This document shows positions 2,007-32,690 of a stretch of DNA of 64,000 nt, one piece after another. The position numbers and the translations under genes were made by a program. Source of the DNA: Nitrososphaerota archaeon (GTDB taxonomy: Archaea > Thermoproteota > Nitrososphaeria > Nitrososphaerales > Gagatemarchaeaceae); contig JAFLYY010000001.1 of the NCBI GenBank assembly GCA_029785825.1, positions 558,001-622,000 of the forward strand, written 5' to 3'. Positions within the stretch are counted from its first letter, which is position 1, and every line of letters begins with the position of its first letter. The notes below the pieces were generated by a model. It worked only from the letters and a program-made list of their open reading frames with translations, was not told where the DNA came from and did not search any database.

Positions 2007-5000
2007 ATGTCAATGGAACAGGCGCTCAAGACGATCGGGGGGATCAACTTCGCGGTCTTCTCCCCGGCAGAGGTCCGCAAGTATTCCGTCGCCGAGATCA
2101 CCCAGCCCGAGACCTACGACGAGGACGGCATGCCGGTGCAGGGAGGGCTCATGGACAGCAGGCTGGGGACCCTCGAGCCAGGACAGAAGTGCGGGACGTG
2201 CGGCAGCACGGCGGGCAGATGCCCGGGACACTTCGGACACGTCGAGCTCGCCGAGCCTGTCCTCCACATCGCTTTCGTAGACGAGATCAACAGGCTGGTC
2301 CAGACCACCTGCAGGTCGTGCGGCCGGATCCTCCTCACCCAGCAGGAGCTGGACGCATACAGGACGAAGCTTGGGAGCCAGACCGACTTCACCCCCTCGC
2401 TGGTGGCGGGGGTGGCGAAGGAGATCGCCACGAAGGCGAAGAAGGTCAAGCTCTGCCCCCACTGCGGGAAGCAGCAGTACCAGATAGAGTTCACGAAACC
2501 GACCATATTCCACGAGATAACTGAGGAAGGGGGGGCGACACGCCTCCTCCCGGTGGCCATCCGCGAGAGGCTGGAGAGGTTGAACAACGACGACCTAGAG
2601 CTCCTTGGGTTCAACTCGAAGGCAGCGCGCCCGGAGTGGTTCGTCCTCCAGGTGCTCCCCGTCCCGCCGCTCACCGTTAGGCCTTCCATCACGCTCGAGT
2701 CGGGTATCAGGTCCGAGGACGATCTGACCCACAAGGTGGTGGACATCCTCAGGGTCAACCAGAGGGTCCGCGAATCGAAAGAGTCCGGTACTCCCCACCT
2801 GATCGTCCAGGACCTTGTGGACCTGCTCCACTACCACGTCACCACCTACTTTGACAACGAGGTCTCGGGGATCCCCCAGGCCCACCACCGCTCCGGAAGG
2901 CCCCTGAAGACTCTCAGCCAGCGGCTGAAGGGGAAGGAGGGGAGGTTCAGAGGGTCGCTGTCGGGGAAGAGGGTCGACTTCTCGAGCCGCACGGTCATCA
3001 GCCCGGACCCCAGCCTCGACATCGGCGACGTCGGCGTCCCCTTTGAAGTGGCAAAGAAGCTCACCATCCCGGAGAAGGTCTCTCCCTTCAACATCGAGCA
3101 CCTGAAGGAGCTCGTCAACAAGGGTCCATTCGAGCACCCCGGTGCCAACTACGTCATCCGGCCGGACGGGGTAAAGATCAGGCTGGACTTCGCCAGCGAC
3201 AGGAAGGCCCTCGCCGACTCCCTTGCGTCGGGGTACGTCGTCGAAAGGCACCTGATGGACGGGGACGTGGTCCTGTTCAACAGGCAGCCGTCGCTCCACA
3301 GGATGTCTGTCATGGCTCACTTCGTCAGGGTGCTCCCGTTCAGGACGTTCAGGCTGCACCCCTCGGTCTGCCCCCCGTACAACGCTGACTTCGACGGGGA
3401 CGAGATGAACCTGCACGTCCCCCAGAGCGAGGAGTCGAGGTCAGAGGCGCTCATGCTGATGAGGGTCCAGGACCAGATTCTCTCTCCCAGGTACGGCGGC
3501 CCCATCATCGGCGGGATCAGAGACTTCATCACGGGGGCTTTCATGCTCACGAGGGACGAGGCGCAGCTCACCCCGGCCGAGTTCTCCAACCTCGCACTGG
3601 TGGGCGACTACGTAGGGGACCTCCCCGAACCTGCAGTGAAGGGAGCCCACCCGATGTACACCGGGAAGCAGCTCTTCTCCCTCTTCCTTCCGAAGGGGAT
3701 GAATTACGTCCTGACTTCGAAGTGGGCGAAGGCCCAGAGGACAGGGAGCACCAACGACGTGGTCATCCGTAACGGGGAGCTCCTGTCAGGCGTGGTGGAC
3801 AAGGCCGTGATAGGCGCCGAGGAGCCCGACTCGCTCCTGCACAGGATTGCCAAAGACTACGGCAACGAGGAAGCGCGCAACTTCCTCAACTCCATACTGA
3901 AGGTCCTCAAGAACTTCCTGACGCGCAGGGGTTTCACATACGGCTTCAACGAGCTGGAGCTCCCAGCCGACGCGAAGAAGGGGATCACTGACGCTCTGGA
4001 CGAAGCGTACGCCAGCGTCGCCGACCTGCAGAAGAAGTACAAGACAGGCAGCCTCCAGCTCACCAGGGGGCTCTCGGCAGAGGACACCCTCGAAGCATAC
4101 ATAGTCAACGAGCTCGCAAAGGCGAGGGACAGGGCGGGGAGGATTGCCGACAGGTCCTTCCCGGCTGAGAACTCCGGGATGATCATGGCAAGGACGGGGG
4201 CGAGGGGGTCTAGCCTGAACGTAGGGCAGATGACCGCAGCCCTGGGCCAGCAGTCGGTCAGAGGGAAGAGGATCACCCACGGCATGAAGGGGAGGGCCCT
4301 CAGCCACTTCTCCTGGGACGACCCCGCCCCCGAGGCCAAGGGGTTCGTGAGGAGCAACTACAGGGACGGCCTGTCCCCGACCGAGTTCTTCTTCCACGCA
4401 ATGGGAGGCCGCGAAGGGCTGGTCGACACGGCCGTCAGGACCCAGCAGAGCGGGTACATGCAGAGAAGGCTGGTGAACGCCCTTGAGCACCTCAAGGTAG
4501 AGTACGACCTCACAGTCAGGGACCCCCACGGCCACATCATCCAGTTCCTCTACGGGGAGGACGGGGTCGACCCGGCGAAGAGCGACCACGGCCGCCCCAT
4601 CAACCTGGACAGGCTGGTGGAGACCGAGGAGCTTTCGCACAAGTCGAAGGCGACTGCCGACGATGCCGAGATCGAGAAGCTCCTGAAGAAGTACCAGGGC
4701 TCCCTCAACGACAGGCTCGTCAAGGAGCTCAGGGAGAAGCTTGGCGCCTCACACCTCACCGAGGAGGGGCTGAAGGAGACCATGGAGAAGGTGGATGAAG
4801 CCATGGACTACTCAAGGGTCGAACCTGGAGAGGCCTCGGGGATAGTCGCGGCGCAGTCCATAGGCGAGCCTGGCACGCAGATGACCCTCAGGACATTCCA
4901 CTTCGCAGGGGTCAGGGAGAGGGACGTGACGCTCGGGCTGCCGCGCCTCATGGAGCTGGTGGACGCGAGGAAGATCCCTGCCACGCCTTCCATGGACATC

Positions 5001-26541: not shown

Positions 26542-27029
26542 TGAGGGCAGTCAGGATCCCCGGTGGCAGCCGAACCGGGCCTGGACAACCAGCGAACTCT
26601 CCTGGCGAGGTCTCCCGCCGGGGCCCTCTTGTCCTCCCTGTGCTCCGACCCTGCCGCCGTCAACCCGGCTGCTGCGCAGTAGAAGCTCCGGAGCGCTGCG
26701 GTCGGGGAGCCAAGAGGTGCGAACTTCCTCCCTGACTTCTGGAGACGGCGTCGGACCCCCTGCGATGGCCTGGGCGCTTTCCGCCTGTCCGAAAGGATGC
26801 GGACCTACGCCTCCGTCTCTTCAGCAGAGGTGCTGGTGTGCAACCTGTATCTTCTGGGACTCTTGCCTTCCCCGGTAGGTTTTATGCTTTTTACGGCGTC
26901 CATGCAGAATCTCCGACAGAGGCGGCGCTCCCCAGGCGGGGCTTCCGGAAAAGACAATATTGCTCACAGGGAAGGGCTCTGCACGTTGCTGGCCGACGGC
27001 CCCGTGGCCACCAGGATGTCGGACCGTTA
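26542..27029. other. Long divergent intergenic region
   Basis: About 490 bases between divergent gmd and the flippase. No protein-like frame that resembles a known family is present. A TATA-like TTTTATGCTTTTTA at 26880-26893 faces the flippase and would leave a leader of about 115 bases, unusually long for this genome. Confidence 0.45.
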
Positions 27030-28517
27030 GTGGCTGAGATAGCTCCACGCCGCACCGGGGTGGTCGTCTTCGGCGCATGGATAGTCAGCATCTTCACCGG
27101 CATAGTGTTCATCTCCATGGTCACCCACCGTCTGACCGCTTCGCAGTTCGGGCTCCTGGAGATCATAACTGACATCGTCGCCTTCGCGAGCTACCCCCTG
27201 TCCATCGTCAGCTACTGGGCCCCGAGAGACATAGGGCGGGGAAAGAAGTTTGGGAAGACCGCCATAGTGGCCAACCTCGCCGTCTCCCTGGGAGGGTGCG
27301 CTGTCTTCGGGCTGTTCGCCTTCGTCGGCAACAGCGCCGTCGTCTCGAGCATCGCCCTGTTCTTCTCGGCGCTCGCGCTCGTCCCGTTGGCTTACTGGTA
27401 CCGGACTGCTAACTCGATCCTTTCTGTCTCCAAGCCACATGCGACGGCCTATACGCTCCTCTCCACGGAGGCCTCGAAGCTGGTCGCGGGCTATTTCCTG
27501 ATCTTTGTCCTCAGATGGGGTCTCCCTGGGGTCCTGCTTTCGCTGTCTCTCTCCAACGTCGTCCAGGCAGGGCTGGGGACCTACCTTGCCCGGGGGACCT
27601 TCGAAGGCTCCCTCTCCCTGGACCAGCTCAAGGTCTGGTTCGGAAGCGCGTGGCTCCCGCTGCTGGACATGACCCCGTCGATAGTCATCTTGGCCGACAC
27701 CTATGTGGTGTTCCTCGTGACGGGAGGGTACACGGTCTCAGGCTACTACCAGGCCGCCTTCGTTATCGCGTCGATGGTCGGATATTCGCGATATCTGTCC
27801 TATGCGCTCTACCCCATGCTGCTCAAGGGGGAGGCTGAGAGGGTGATCGGGGTCCTCTTCGACCTCATGATGATGGTCGGGATCCCCATGGCGGTGGGCG
27901 TTTCGGCCCTTGCCCCGGAGTTCCTCTACCTGCTGTCGAAGCAGTACGTGGTGACGTCGGTCCCGCTCATGATCCTCGCCTTCTCCGCGCTTGCGAGCGC
28001 AGTCTTTTCCCTCCTCGACTACTCCCTCATAGGGAAGGACAAGTCGGACATAGCTGAAGGGAACAGGTTCGGAAACCTCCTGAAGGGGAACCTCTTCTTC
28101 GTACCGGTGATGAACCTGACCTACGGGGTCATCTACCTCGCCGGCGTCGCGGCGGTCGCCTACTTCGGCATCTCCTTCGGGTACTCCTACCCGCTCATCA
28201 TTACGCTCTGGGCTGCTGGCCAGCTCATCCTGAACCTCCTGTTCGTGGTGCTGAAGGTCAGGAGGCTGGGTCTGAGGTCCTTCGCAGGGACAGGAAGACC
28301 CCTGGCCTACTACACGCTGTCGGCGGCGGCCATGGCCGCGACGGTCCGCGCGGTTGGTCCGTCGCTTCTGGGCTTCTCCATGCCCACGATAGACTACGCG
28401 GTACGGCTCATGCTCCTGATAGCCGTGGGGATGGCCGTCTACTTCGGCATCCTCGCGGCCGTCGATAAGCGTTCGAGAGAACGGATCGCGAAGGTGCCGG
28501 GCATCTTCCTGCCGTAG
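27030..28517 (+). CDS. Polysaccharide flippase (Wzx/MurJ-like, MATE/MOP superfamily)
   Basis: About 495 residues, nearly all hydrophobic, with roughly 12-14 predicted membrane helices (for example VVFGAWIVSIFTGIVFISMV at the start and MLLIAVGMAVYFGILAAV at the end). The first helix with VTHRLTASQFGLLEIITDI resembles the opening of O-antigen flippases (LsxxdyGxyxl). It likely moves a lipid-linked saccharide across the membrane. The start is placed at the GTG at 27030, just before the first helix; the upstream open frame is not protein-like. Confidence 0.82.
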   Translation: MAEIAPRRTGVVVFGAWIVSIFTGIVFISMVTHRLTASQFGLLEIITDIVAFASYPLSIVSYWAPRDIGRGKKFGKTAIVANLAVSLGGCAVFGLFAFVGNSAVVSSIALFFSALALVPLAYWYRTANSILSVSKPHATAYTLLSTEASKLVAGYFLIFVLRWGLPGVLLSLSLSNVVQAGLGTYLARGTFEGSLSLDQLKVWFGSAWLPLLDMTPSIVILADTYVVFLVTGGYTVSGYYQAAFVIASMVGYSRYLSYALYPMLLKGEAERVIGVLFDLMMMVGIPMAVGVSALAPEFLYLLSKQYVVTSVPLMILAFSALASAVFSLLDYSLIGKDKSDIAEGNRFGNLLKGNLFFVPVMNLTYGVIYLAGVAAVAYFGISFGYSYPLIITLWAAGQLILNLLFVVLKVRRLGLRSFAGTGRPLAYYTLSAAAMAATVRAVGPSLLGFSMPTIDYAVRLMLLIAVGMAVYFGILAAVDKRSRERIAKVPGIFLP

Positions 28518-28562: not shown

Positions 28563-29522
28563 TCACCCCAACAGCAAGCTGTTCGCCCCACAGTAGTCAA
28601 GGGTGGAGCCGTAGTCGCCGTCAAGCATGGATGCCAGGTCAGGTGGGATCGCCCTCGCGGTTTCCTCTTCGCTGGGTGGAGAGCTCCCTCTCCGGGCGGT
28701 CCCTGCGCGCTCCCCGAGCCCCTTCAGGGGGTTGAGCTTCCCCAGCGGCTTCCGTAACGGCCCTTTCCCTTCCGGGTCCGCGGTGTTCAGGAAGTATCTG
28801 ACCGGGGTCATCACTGTCCTGGTCAGCCGGAGGTAAGGCGCCGCCGTCCTCCGTTGGTACTCGTCCAACGACTTCATTCTGCCGGCGTTCGAGCGGAGCG
28901 GCTCGACGTCGACCGCCTCCACCCCCAGGAACTCGAAGACCCGGCGCATGACCTGCTCCGGCCGTTCCGAGAGGGACTTGTTGTCCACCACCTTGACCGA
29001 GTCGCCGAACAGCCGATGATATGACGTCAGCATCTCCCGGAAGAGAAACGGGCTGGCCTGGGGCCTGAACCTTTTCTCGATCCACCGGTGGAAGTCCGAC
29101 TCCAGGTGGTAGGGGAAGCCGTGGAAGTAGAGGCTCAGCAGCCTGTCCTTCTGCTCCCTGACCATGAATATGAGCTTGGCTTTGGGGGAGAATCGCCAGA
29201 GCTTCTCGGGGAAGACCGGCGGCCAGATGTACGACTGGCTCCCTTCGGCTCTGTACCGGGCCCCCTTCGCCTTCTCCAGGCGGCCCCTGTACTGCTTCAT
29301 GTCAAGGTAGTTGAAGTATGGCCGTTTCATCTGGTGGTGGTGGTCCCTTGCCCAGGCCGGAACGTCGATTCCCACAGCCAGCGTGTTGGGCTCCTTCGGC
29401 TCCATCATGTAGATGGCGGGGTTCTGCTTCAGATAGTCACAGAGCGCCGTGGTGCCGCACTTCGGAAACCCGGGGACGAAGAGGTTGGGCTTCCAGTCCT
29501 CAGGCCCTTCTTCCGTGCTCAC
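28563..29522 (-). CDS. PAPS-dependent sulfotransferase
   Basis: 319 residues. The 5'-phosphosulfate loop is FPKCGTTALCDYL (PKxGTT motif with the catalytic-site Lys), and the 3'-phosphate-binding region is FMVREQKDRLLSLYFH. SERPEQVMRRVFEFLGVE is the usual C-terminal sulfotransferase signature. No membrane helix or signal peptide is evident, so it likely acts in the cytoplasm on a saccharide or lipid intermediate. GTG start. Its PAPS-loop coding block (29377-29496) is base-for-base identical to part of the second sulfotransferase, although the rest has diverged. Confidence 0.88.
   Translation of the reverse strand: MSTEEGPEDWKPNLFVPGFPKCGTTALCDYLKQNPAIYMMEPKEPNTLAVGIDVPAWARDHHHQMKRPYFNYLDMKQYRGRLEKAKGARYRAEGSQSYIWPPVFPEKLWRFSPKAKLIFMVREQKDRLLSLYFHGFPYHLESDFHRWIEKRFRPQASPFLFREMLTSYHRLFGDSVKVVDNKSLSERPEQVMRRVFEFLGVEAVDVEPLRSNAGRMKSLDEYQRRTAAPYLRLTRTVMTPVRYFLNTADPEGKGPLRKPLGKLNPLKGLGERAGTARRGSSPPSEEETARAIPPDLASMLDGDYGSTLDYCGANSLLLG
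29377..29496. repeat. 120-bp perfect repeat, copy 1 (within first sulfotransferase)
   Basis: Base-identical to 31366-31485 in the same orientation. It encodes the PAPS-binding loop and the following MEPKEPNTLA region. Identity ends sharply on both sides. Confidence 0.95.
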
Positions 29523-29549
29523 AGCCGATCCGAGCGGGCGAAACCCGCA

Positions 29550-29570
29550 CCGCTTTGAAAACGTTTTCCG
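29550..29570 (-). promoter_or_regulatory. Palindrome upstream of the first sulfotransferase
   Basis: GAAAACGTTTTC at 29557-29568 is a perfect palindrome followed, in gene direction, by CAAAGC. Its centre is 40.5 bases before the GTG start. The same arrangement, with GAAACGTTTC and TAAGC, occurs at the same distance before the second sulfotransferase. Confidence 0.5.
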
Positions 29571-29659
29571 GTATCCGTTATGCGACGCCTCTGTCGGAGG
29601 CGCCGGCTACCCCGCTACCGCCCTTGGCGTCCGCAGCACGGTCTCCCTGGTCTCCGGCT

Positions 29660-30382
29660 CTACCGCGCCGGAGGTCTGGCGTCATGACCGGGACCCGGGG
29701 TGGCCCGCAGCAGCCCGACCTCGCGCCCGTTGACCACCCTGACGCTCTTCTCGTCCACCCTCTCCATCCCGAACCTCCCGACCAGCTCGTCGCCGGTGTC
29801 CGCGCCGTGGTACTCCACGACGCACGGAAACCCTATCCTGTCAAGCTTGAGGAGCTCCTTCTCGCCTCCTTCGCAGTCTATCTCGGCGAAGTCGAAAGGC
29901 AGCTCACGGAGATGCTTTAGGTCGAAGCGTTCGTTGTAGACGACGGCGTCCCAGTGGTTGCTTTCCATGTTGGCCCTGAGGACGTCAGCAGACCCCTTCA
30001 GATAGTCGTCCGACTCCACGCAGATGAACCTGGTGGCGCCGTGAGACGCGTAGAAGGCCGCGCTCTCGCCCTGGCCCGCTCCCACGAGGAGGACCGTCTT
30101 GTTCCTGAGAGGGAACTGGGGGAGGTAATATTTCTCCCACTTTCCCCACTCCATCACAAGCGTCTTCGCGTACACTTCGTCGAGGGCGAGCGTCCAGCCG
30201 CCGCGGGCGAGCCTCAGGCGTCCCGGCTCGTCGGAGACGCGGAACCGGTACCGCTGGCGGAGCAGGGACGGAAGGTTCCAGACGGCGTAGGTCCCGTCCA
30301 CGAACTTCAAGACAGGAAGATGCCTCCTTTGCGATAGACCCAGGGCGATATTCATGCTCTTGGCGGCCTCTGACCTGGGCAT
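29660..30382 (-). CDS. FkbM-family SAM-dependent methyltransferase
   Basis: 240 residues. Rossmann motif I TVLLVGAGQGESAAFYA, then ATRFICVESDDYL (acidic residue binding SAM ribose) and the FkbM hallmark DFAEIDCEGGEKELL. These enzymes O-methylate sugars or other small molecules and are common in glycan clusters. It lies between the two sulfotransferases on the same strand. The first about 80 residues are not part of the SAM fold and may bind the acceptor. Confidence 0.82.
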   Translation of the reverse strand: MPRSEAAKSMNIALGLSQRRHLPVLKFVDGTYAVWNLPSLLRQRYRFRVSDEPGRLRLARGGWTLALDEVYAKTLVMEWGKWEKYYLPQFPLRNKTVLLVGAGQGESAAFYASHGATRFICVESDDYLKGSADVLRANMESNHWDAVVYNERFDLKHLRELPFDFAEIDCEGGEKELLKLDRIGFPCVVEYHGADTGDELVGRFGMERVDEKSVRVVNGREVGLLRATPGPGHDARPPAR

Positions 30383-30539
30383 ACTGTGCTACCACAGGTT
30401 GGCGTCGCGCCGCATTAAGTCTTGGGTAGGCGAGGGAGGTCAGTCCGCCCGCCATCAGATGTGGGCCACGCGCGTCCCTCTGTGACAGGACATCGATCAG
30501 CTCTCTACCCGCAGAGGCGACACATGGGAGCCCAGGGGT

Positions 30540-31505
30540 TCAGCCGTTGTTCTCTATCATGAGGCTCCGACTCCTGCAGAACTCGTACGCCTGGGCGTAG
30601 TCCTCGTCGAGCTTGGCTGCCAGCTCCTTGGGTATCAGGCTCTCCTCCGGGACCGCTTCGATTCGCCGCCTACGGGGTCTTTCGACCTGCTCGCTCCCGC
30701 GCTTCATGACCTTCCTCAGAGGGTGGAGCTGGAACAGGCGGTTCAGAAACGGGGACCCGCGCCCCGGGTCGGCGGTGTTCCAGAGGTAGGTGACCGGCGT
30801 CCTGACGTCCCGGACGAACCTGTCTCGGCCGGAGCGGATGGCTCTGGCCTCCGGGCTCAGGGACTTCAGCTCTCCCACGTTCGACTGTATGGGAGTGACC
30901 TCAGCCCTGGTGACCCCCAGGAAGTCAGACACCGCGTCCATCACCTGCTGCGGGGACCGTTGCAGCGCGTCCCCCCCGACCACCCTCATGGAGTCTCCGA
31001 AAACGTGATAGAATGACGACAGCCTTTCGCTGTACAGGAACTTGCCGATTTCCGGTTCTACCCTTTCGCTCACCCATCTGCGGAAGTCGGGCTCCCTGTG
31101 TTCCGTGTAGAGATAGAAGTACATGGAGACCAGCCTGCTCTTCTGCTCCCTTATCATGAACAGGAGCTTAGCCCTGGGCGAGAACTCCTTCAGCTTCCGC
31201 GGAAAGCGCCTGGGAAAGATGTAGTTCTGGGACCCTTCGGCCCTGTAGCGTGCGTCCGCGTGCCGCTCGAACTGCCGCCTGTAGGCCCGAAAGCCAAGGA
31301 CCGAATAGTAGGGTCGCATCAACCTGAGGTGCCTGGACCCCCAAGCCGGTATCAGCTCCCCTTCGGCCAGCGTGTTGGGCTCCTTCGGCTCCATCATGTA
31401 GATGGCGGGGTTCTGCTTCAGATAGTCACAGAGCGCCGTGGTGCCGCACTTCGGAAACCCGGGGACGAAGAGGTTGGGCTTCCAGCTTCTTTGCTCTCCC
31501 GCCAT
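30540..31505 (-). CDS. PAPS-dependent sulfotransferase (second copy)
   Basis: About 321 residues from the ATG at 31505. PAPS loop FPKCGTTALCDYL, 3'-phosphate region FMIREQKSRLVSMYFYL and RSPQQVMDAVSDFLGVTRAE near the C-terminus match the other copy at equivalent positions. Outside the identical block the proteins differ clearly, which suggests different acceptors. A frame extends upstream to 31580, but the shared upstream palindrome has the same distance (40.5 bases) to 31505 as to the start of the other copy, so 31505 is preferred. Confidence 0.88.
   Translation of the reverse strand: MAGEQRSWKPNLFVPGFPKCGTTALCDYLKQNPAIYMMEPKEPNTLAEGELIPAWGSRHLRLMRPYYSVLGFRAYRRQFERHADARYRAEGSQNYIFPRRFPRKLKEFSPRAKLLFMIREQKSRLVSMYFYLYTEHREPDFRRWVSERVEPEIGKFLYSERLSSFYHVFGDSMRVVGGDALQRSPQQVMDAVSDFLGVTRAEVTPIQSNVGELKSLSPEARAIRSGRDRFVRDVRTPVTYLWNTADPGRGSPFLNRLFQLHPLRKVMKRGSEQVERPRRRRIEAVPEESLIPKELAAKLDEDYAQAYEFCRSRSLMIENNG
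31366..31485. repeat. 120-bp perfect repeat, copy 2 (within second sulfotransferase)
   Basis: Identical to 29377-29496. The bases immediately outside differ on both sides, which delimits the block. Confidence 0.95.
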
Positions 31506-31533
31506 GGCTGTTGCCTGGCCGTGGGGCGTTGAT

Positions 31534-31553
31534 TGGCTTAGAAACGTTTCTTC
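31534..31553 (-). promoter_or_regulatory. Palindrome upstream of the second sulfotransferase
   Basis: GAAACGTTTC at 31541-31550, followed in gene direction by TAAGC, centred 40.5 bases before the ATG at 31505. It parallels the element before the first sulfotransferase and may combine a TATA-like core with an operator. Confidence 0.5.
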
Positions 31554-31616
31554 CGGGCTGACCTGGCGCTCGTCAGGCACCGGTCTGCGACCTAGGCCAA
31601 GAGCGGCCCCGAGGCT

Positions 31617-32390
31617 TCAACCGTCGGCTTCCTCGAACGAGTCGTCCAGTCTCAGGTGCTGGACGTACGCGTGGAGCACGCCTCTGGTCGAATCTATCCT
31701 CCGCCTCATCAGCTGTCTCGCGGCCGCGACGTCACCCGTTCGCGCCAGTATGAAGGCGGCCTTGAACGGCTCCTGAAACACGAGCCTCTCGAGCTGGTTC
31801 CTTGGGGTGAGGATGCCAATCTGGTAGCCGCACCTCGCGCTCTCGTACGTCTCTGCAGCCATGTCACGGCCCGACAGGTGGTGGTAATAGTTCGAGGTCG
31901 GCGTCCTGACCCACCTGTACCCCTTCCTTTCCAAGAAGAGGCGCAGCCAGTCGTCTTCGTAGTAATGGATGCTGGGGAAGCGGATCCCCTTGGCGGCCCG
32001 CGTCCGGAGCAGGGTGGCGCCGGTGAACGCCCTGTCTACCGTGTCCAGCGGGCTCTTCCTTCCAAGGACCCGGTTCAGCGACTCCATCGCCGACAGCACG
32101 TTGTCCGCGTCCCTGTTCCCCGTGCCGACGACCTGCCTCCCTTCCACCGCCCCGACCCCTTCCTTCATCGCCGAGGTGACGTCACCGAACCAGGTCGACG
32201 TGAGCACGACGTCAGTGTCGACGAACGCGAAGCAGTCGGTGGAGACCTGCTCCACCAGCTTCTGCCTGGAGCGCCCCCTCCCTTTCGTCGAGTCTACGAG
32301 CAGCCTGTTGACCGGGATGACGTCCTCGAGGTGACGGGCGAACTCTTCGGAAAGCGGTTTCAGGGAGGGTACACAGACGTCTATCTTCAT
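31617..32390 (-). CDS. Glycosyltransferase, GT2/GT-A type
   Basis: About 257 residues from ATG 32390, where a GT-A fold begins (MKIDVCVPSLKPL). The metal-binding DxD-type motif is FAFVDTDVVLTSTW and the acceptor-side ED motif is IHYYEDDWLRLFLERKGYRW. The C-terminal about 80 residues (SGRDMAAETYESARCGYQ and onward) form a variable tail without a membrane helix. The frame extends 42 codons further upstream but that part is not family-like. Confidence 0.75.
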   Translation of the reverse strand: MKIDVCVPSLKPLSEEFARHLEDVIPVNRLLVDSTKGRGRSRQKLVEQVSTDCFAFVDTDVVLTSTWFGDVTSAMKEGVGAVEGRQVVGTGNRDADNVLSAMESLNRVLGRKSPLDTVDRAFTGATLLRTRAAKGIRFPSIHYYEDDWLRLFLERKGYRWVRTPTSNYYHHLSGRDMAAETYESARCGYQIGILTPRNQLERLVFQEPFKAAFILARTGDVAAARQLMRRRIDSTRGVLHAYVQHLRLDDSFEEADG

Positions 32391-32690
32391 CGCGGACCTC
32401 TTCCAGCGGGCGCCGTCCGCCTCGCCGTACGACGCGCAAGCGGCCCCAGGAGCGCACCGGCCCGCAGGTCTTCCCTTATCTGGACACACGAGGCGGAGTT
32501 CATCTTGCTCCTTCAAGGCCGGGTCCTGGGCTGGAATTTAAGCTGCCTCCCCGCTGCCGTCCCCCGACCAGTCCGATCCGGAGAGGACTGCATGGCACGG
32601 GGGTGCTGTCGGCCCCCACCGGCCGGGACCTGGGGTCGCCGCCGCTTCATCCTTTAGTAGTCCGGCCGTGCGACAGCGTACGACTGTTAC
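32391..32690. other. Divergent intergenic region before asnB
   Basis: 300 bases between the divergent glycosyltransferase and asnB. A TATA-like CCTTTAGTAG at 32650-32659 lies about 37 bases before the asnB TTG. ATTTAAGC at 32535-32542 is another AT-rich spot. No gene is recognised. Confidence 0.4.

Follow-up and report, generated by a model that had tools for sequence, protein, structure and literature searches.

The sulfotransferase locus and its repeated block

The window, which is the whole 64,000-nt stretch of DNA analysed, includes two neighbouring genes, here called A and B, that are on the minus strand and belong to the sulfotransferase families. The features of the locus are as follows.

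26838..28517, plus strand: ORF for a multi-spanning membrane protein downstream of A, flippase-like by eye
28563..29522, minus strand: gene A, ORF for a sulfotransferase of 319 aa (Pfam Sulfotransfer_1, 1.2e-11; Sulfotransfer_3, 1.3e-9)
29377..29496, minus strand: homogenised 120-nt block of gene A, identical at 120/120 bases to 31366-31485
29660..30382, minus strand: ORF of 240 aa between A and B
30540..31580, minus strand: gene B, ORF for a sulfotransferase of 346 aa (Pfam Sulfotransfer_3, 3.6e-7; Sulfotransfer_1, 3.7e-6)
31366..31485, minus strand: homogenised 120-nt block of gene B, identical at 120/120 bases to 29377-29496
31617..32516, minus strand: glycosyltransferase-2-like ORF upstream of B (PF00535, E 2.5e-4, just below the cut-off)

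Both genes are above the cut-off for Pfam PF00685 and PF13469, and no third copy was found at E <= 1 in the genome that contains the window (the host genome). The best solved relative of the family profile is a sulfotransferase from Alicyclobacillus (PDB 3rnl, 1.2e-30), and heparan sulfotransferases gave weaker matches. The segments GFPKCGTTAL and REQKxRLxSxY, which we take to be the 5' and 3' phosphate-binding motifs of PAPS-dependent sulfotransferases, align with GAAKCGTSSL and RNPVDRAFSAY, respectively, in 3rnl. A predicted structure of mediocre quality (mean pLDDT 69.5), used only to confirm the fold, agrees with that of a sulfotransferase. The 240-aa ORF has no Pfam or NCBIfam match and is presumably methyltransferase-like, based on a GxGxG-type motif. 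The membrane ORF has no NCBIfam match.

The two copies of the block match at every base, with no mismatches, and are found at the same position within genes A and B. This 120-nt sequence occurs exactly twice in the host genome, and its copies, which are direct repeats with a spacing of 1,989 bases, are the only direct repeats of at least 40 nt in the window. In an ungapped comparison, identity drops to the chance level immediately on either side of both copies. Downstream of the block, A and B agree at 42 % of residues and at 48 % of third-codon bases (269 codons), compared with 100 % for both in the block. When only degenerate codons that specify the same amino acid in both genes were considered in a codon alignment, 36/36 were identical in the block and 66/110 elsewhere, and the chance of finding 36/36 at the rate seen outside the block is approximately 1e-8. 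The original prediction described a perfect identity that includes every third codon base and has sharp edges and diverged flanks, and all of this was confirmed; silent-site identity over the remainder of the two genes is not equally high.

The block encodes a conserved N-terminal strand, loop and helix that includes PGFPKCGTTAL, and it ends with KEPNTL. It had been proposed to encode the PAPS-binding loop, and this assignment, which remains a predicted one, agrees with the alignment to solved sulfotransferases. In Halobacterium, two different sulfotransferases are described, in the part of the report available, as acting on one N-glycan (PMC11980604). Because of this case, it is plausible that A and B are two putative sulfotransferases that have different acceptors and a common cofactor module.

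The gene pair in other genomes of the genus

Genes A and B are present in 4 of the 31 genomes from the genus (the host genome, G013, G004 and G006), and each of the four has both genes. However, G004 and G006 do not differ at any of the 15,927 bases compared, and therefore only three independent lineages have the pair, which limits any explanation of its history. G006 was omitted from the statistics for this reason. We note that G004 and G006 are entered as different species, but seem to stem from a single population or data set.

The gene order, namely B, A and then the membrane protein, is common to the lineages. As syntenic markers, the membrane ORF is also found in G013 and G004, and the glycosyltransferase-2-like ORF is upstream of B in G004 as well. 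The 240-aa ORF lies between A and B in the host genome and G013, and is absent in G004 and G006. The conversion described below persists with or without this ORF.

Comparison with close relatives, which had been suggested in the original prediction, revealed homogenisation of the same segment within the genome in all three lineages, with differences between species. The tract that is identical in A and B is 120 nt long in the host genome and 121 and 122 nt long in the other two lineages, and in an alignment its left edges fall within 3 nt of each other and its right edges within 1 nt. Between species, the block differs at 9/120 positions for the host and G013 and at 20-21/120 positions for the host and G004, mostly at third positions. 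Within each of the three genomes, A and B have a third-position identity of 1.00 in the block, whereas between orthologues it is 0.79 (host and G013) or 0.62 (host and G004). In the flanks, the corresponding values for orthologues are 0.81-0.83 and 0.57-0.58. As the orthologue values are alike in the block and in the flanks, the block evolves at an ordinary silent rate, but in both genes at once. Amino acid variants are also concerted, with both paralogues together carrying IYMMEPKEP, IYVMEPKEP or VYVMSPKEP, depending on the species. Hence, paralogues within a genome are more alike than orthologues, silent sites included, as found in concerted evolution. The degenerate-codon calculation made above for the host genome gave 4e-8 for G013 and 1e-10 for G004.

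Site patterns were compared using a set of 549 ungapped variable columns from six sequences (columns gapped in any sequence were dropped). There are 24 variable columns in the block, and 23 of these are species-concerted, i.e. the same in both paralogues, while none are split by paralogue. The exception is the base at the right edge, which differs between the two copies only in G004. Outside the block, 115 of the 525 variable columns are split between A and B and 13 are species-concerted. The outermost concerted sites are at positions 10 and 115 in the block, indicating that conversion covers nearly the whole island. When G004 was used as the outgroup, five changes in the block were assigned to the host branch, three to the G013 branch and one was ambiguous, and each is found in both paralogues; this requires that each of the two branches underwent conversion at least once. 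In a permutation test, the within-species run was never reached in 20,000 shuffles (p <= 5e-5 for all three pairs), and p values for four orthologue pairs were 0.018-0.90.

In a tree made from the 39 codons of the block, A pairs with B in G013 and in G004 at 100 % bootstrap and both host copies group together. In contrast, the tree for the rest of the gene (columns past the 40th; columns to the left of the block are in neither tree) separates A from B, also at 100 % bootstrap. This separation, together with the conserved gene order, makes the duplication older than the split of the species.

Probable recurrent conversion and other explanations

The interpretation that we favour, with a probability of roughly 0.93, is that recurrent gene conversion keeps a cofactor-loop island identical in a pair of old tandem sulfotransferase paralogues. 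Two old, functionally diverged genes would share a single short DNA island of perfect homology at the cofactor-loop module, and homologous recombination, presumably by RadA-type strand exchange, would repeatedly copy it from one gene to the other, with each new mutation in the island either erased or spread to both genes. The diverged flanks would be unable to pair and the tract would stop there. The left edge would be placed where homology between A and B is lost near the start of gene A, because only 4-9 codons of A precede the block and B has an unrelated extension. The right edge would be at the start of the first strongly paralogue-specific segment, where selection against swapping of that segment probably helps. 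Conversion would maintain the identity of the island, and this would keep it above the level of homology needed for recombination. We infer that the edges are set by the diverged flanks and that the island is self-sustaining, and the latter is favoured by the finding that conversion covers nearly all of it. The enzymes involved, the direction of copying and the selective value of conversion we likewise infer. A point against this interpretation is that homogenisation is absent from the conserved stretches elsewhere in A and B.

The frequency of conversion can be estimated roughly. If the last conversion occurred at a fraction f of the branch back from the present, the approximately 9 changes in the block between the host and G013 lead to an expectation of about 18f differences over the two within-genome pairs. 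As none were seen, f is probably below about 0.17, and conversion would then be frequent on the scale of species divergence. Recombination between direct repeats spaced 1,989 bases apart could also remove the sequence between them, which would leave B fused to A. Both A and B have been kept in all three lineages.

Among the alternatives, an assembly artefact, in which the assembler merged or copied a segment and two different sequences are read as identical, survives best, though it is very improbable. The relatives are metagenome assemblies, G013 is represented by a short contig with a stated coverage of 2.5, and the length of the repeat is about that of a short read or a large k-mer. However, species-specific versions of the block were recovered in three assemblies from three lineages. 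Merging in an assembly graph needs near-identical input; it might hide a few differences only and would be unable to make paralogues with 48-52 % third-position identity identical. In addition, the pair in G004 retains the difference at the right edge, and a further genome, G029, retains a single difference inside a comparable island in Opp genes (see below).

A single recent conversion or module exchange confined to the species of the window is slightly less probable again. The original prediction had proposed either a recent gene conversion confined to the cofactor site or a very recent exchange of the module. The absence of silent differences within the host genome would be explained by either, but in G013 and G004 the same segment is homogenised with their own sequence, and the derived changes on the host and G013 branches are each in both paralogues. 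A single recent event was rejected on the evidence from these relatives. Hence, gene conversion at the cofactor site stands, but as a recurrent process, since changes in both paralogues are seen on at least two branches, and an exchange of the module from elsewhere is not needed. Two scans of viral contigs for a viral source did not find a close relative; a single partial match at 38 % (L023) came from the protein scan, and of 43 stretches in the profile scan none was confirmed.

The last two alternatives have almost no probability and were rejected. If the DNA or RNA of the segment were under strong purifying selection, as from an overlapping element, without any copying, this would fit the high conservation of the encoded residues (many positions from K33 to P67 of gene B are invariant), but the block varies between species with the changes alike in both copies, and independent selection would not give species-specific matching silent changes. 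Separate recent duplications of the gene, one per species, would fit only the part that is identical within species, and are contradicted by the flanks, as outside the block A and B group by gene rather than by species, and the gene order is common.

Other islands and known systems

Recurrent conversion at the A/B block is not the only potential case in this order. G053 belongs to another family of the order. One neighbouring pair of sulfotransferase genes in this genome, with a membrane-protein gene in between, shares a 99-nt perfect island (L018, 6677-6775 and 9303-9401). This island lies in a different module from the A/B block (RYRVDGSTSYT through KIIMCI), and 32/32 codons for the same amino acid are identical within it, compared with 47/106 outside. 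The same tandem pair was not found in close relatives of G053.

Another island turned up in the host genome, in a control set of ABC ATPases. On contig C5, two tandem genes for Opp/Dpp-type ATPases share 122 identical nt (L098, 4054-4175 and 5025-5146) that encode a C-terminal cysteine-rich motif, with 38/38 degenerate codons identical in the island and 93/268 third positions alike outside it. The surroundings are sugar-operon-like, with a GC content of 0.55 compared with 0.70 at the left end of the stretch. The corresponding locus in G029 is identical to that of the host at 3,938 of 3,939 bases, and the sole difference is in the island of one copy (L099, 3392). This near identity is found despite G029 being counted as a different species, and a recent transfer or a contig shared in binning are possible explanations.

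The control paralogues from the host genome included 30 of the 33 ABC-ATPase matches listed and all seven GT2 matches. A long island was found in one of the six tandem ABC pairs and in none of the other five, and no other common stretch of at least 24 nt was detected among the non-overlapping control ABC and GT2 stretches. Opp genes in relatives were surveyed using 30 loci from the genus, 30 loci from the order and 40 fetched stretches, which were taken from the matches listed and overlap in part. An island of >99 nt was found only at the host/G029 locus. Shorter islands were seen at 2/30 genus loci (33 nt), 6/30 order loci (30-53 nt) and in 6/40 fetched stretches (33-43 nt), and most of the Opp loci examined in relatives have no island.

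Five genomes from the genus of G053 have islands of 34-53 nt at the CRFYARCPYAMD motif in tandem Opp-type genes, as follows.

L192: G037
L193: G086
L154: G064
L135: G072
L158: G053

By inspection, several silent changes are common to both Opp copies of a species (G053 and G037), and the copies in G072 break the concerted pattern at one codon. These short Opp islands are only suggestive, and may be due to codon bias at a conserved motif.

A match to the sulfotransferase gene was found in 25 of 400 genomes from the order (drawn from a larger group) and in 7 of 398 from the phylum, and few of these have two copies. The longest stretch common to the two copies is <=11 nt in G079, where the genes are on different contigs, 29 nt in G268, where they are in tandem, and 12 nt in G319; hence neither the dispersed G079 pair nor the tandem G268 pair has a long island. 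As an island is absent from the G268 tandem pair and from five of the six tandem ABC pairs, a tandem position alone does not produce one. We note that G079 also includes short direct repeats (L054, 881-1313), which are 37-50 nt long with a spacing of about 260-270 nt.

A broader but tentative proposal, which we consider somewhat less likely than its opposite, is that the order of the host habitually runs very short-tract conversion between neighbouring paralogues. Cofactor- or metal-binding islands of ~35-122 nt would then be locked identical and self-sustaining while the specificity parts diverge, with the module that is locked depending on the lineage. If this is true, there is evolution on a sub-domain scale that gene trees and full-length scans miss. 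Should islands of motif size turn out to be common, full-length methods have led to an undercount of concerted evolution in prokaryotes. For the A/B pair itself, recurrent conversion would provide a clean natural example of a cofactor module that evolves as a joint property of two enzymes, the other parts of which evolve separately. The 120-nt scale limits how little homology archaeal gene conversion needs in order to persist over speciation. It also carries a warning, as the paralogues are mixed up at such motifs in gene trees, in annotation and in variant calls from short reads.

No report of conversion in archaeal sulfotransferases was found among the results listed from the open-access literature searched. 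Partial gene conversion among archaeal paralogues has reportedly been described for chaperonin genes by Archibald and Roger in 2002. The closest archaeal parallel among the cases compared here is the mtrA-1/mtrA-2 pair in Methanococcales and Methanomicrobiales, where repeated conversion is confined to one part of tandem paralogues (PMC4632066, from the part available). As in A and B, one part of the genes is homogenised within species while the other diverges, and in the homogenised part orthologues are less alike than paralogues. However, in mtrA, a central methanogenesis gene, the whole MtrA domain is affected, whereas in A and B, which are accessory genes, conversion involves only a motif of ~40 codons inside one catalytic domain, with perfect identity and edges fixed to a few bases. 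The concerted A/B block spans three lineages of one genus.

In the release factor genes RF1 and RF2 of Bacteroidia and Chloroflexi, the available text describes conversion limited to domain 3, the segment with a common function (PMC4530459). The specificity part stays separate, as in A and B, but a larger region is involved and the events, apart from motif reversions, are ancestral, with one in each of the two groups. In A and B, the within-species identity has been renewed in each of three lineages. Long-lasting concerted evolution was identified for 26 prokaryotic genes in a survey (PMC6053082), which likewise found recurrent homogenisation of paralogues within species and conserved synteny. 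It focused on full-length cases and left partial ones as future work, and sulfotransferases are not named in the part of it that was available. In the tuf genes of Salmonella, conversion measured experimentally runs to the bounds of the homologous gene (PMC5485169, from the text available), so that whole genes are converted, in contrast to the 120-nt island reported here, where conversion is deduced from sequence comparisons. The A/B pair therefore fits best as probable motif-sized concerted evolution by gene conversion, of the type known from mtrA and RF1/RF2, and is unusual relative to the known cases in the small size of the converted motif and the stability of its edges.
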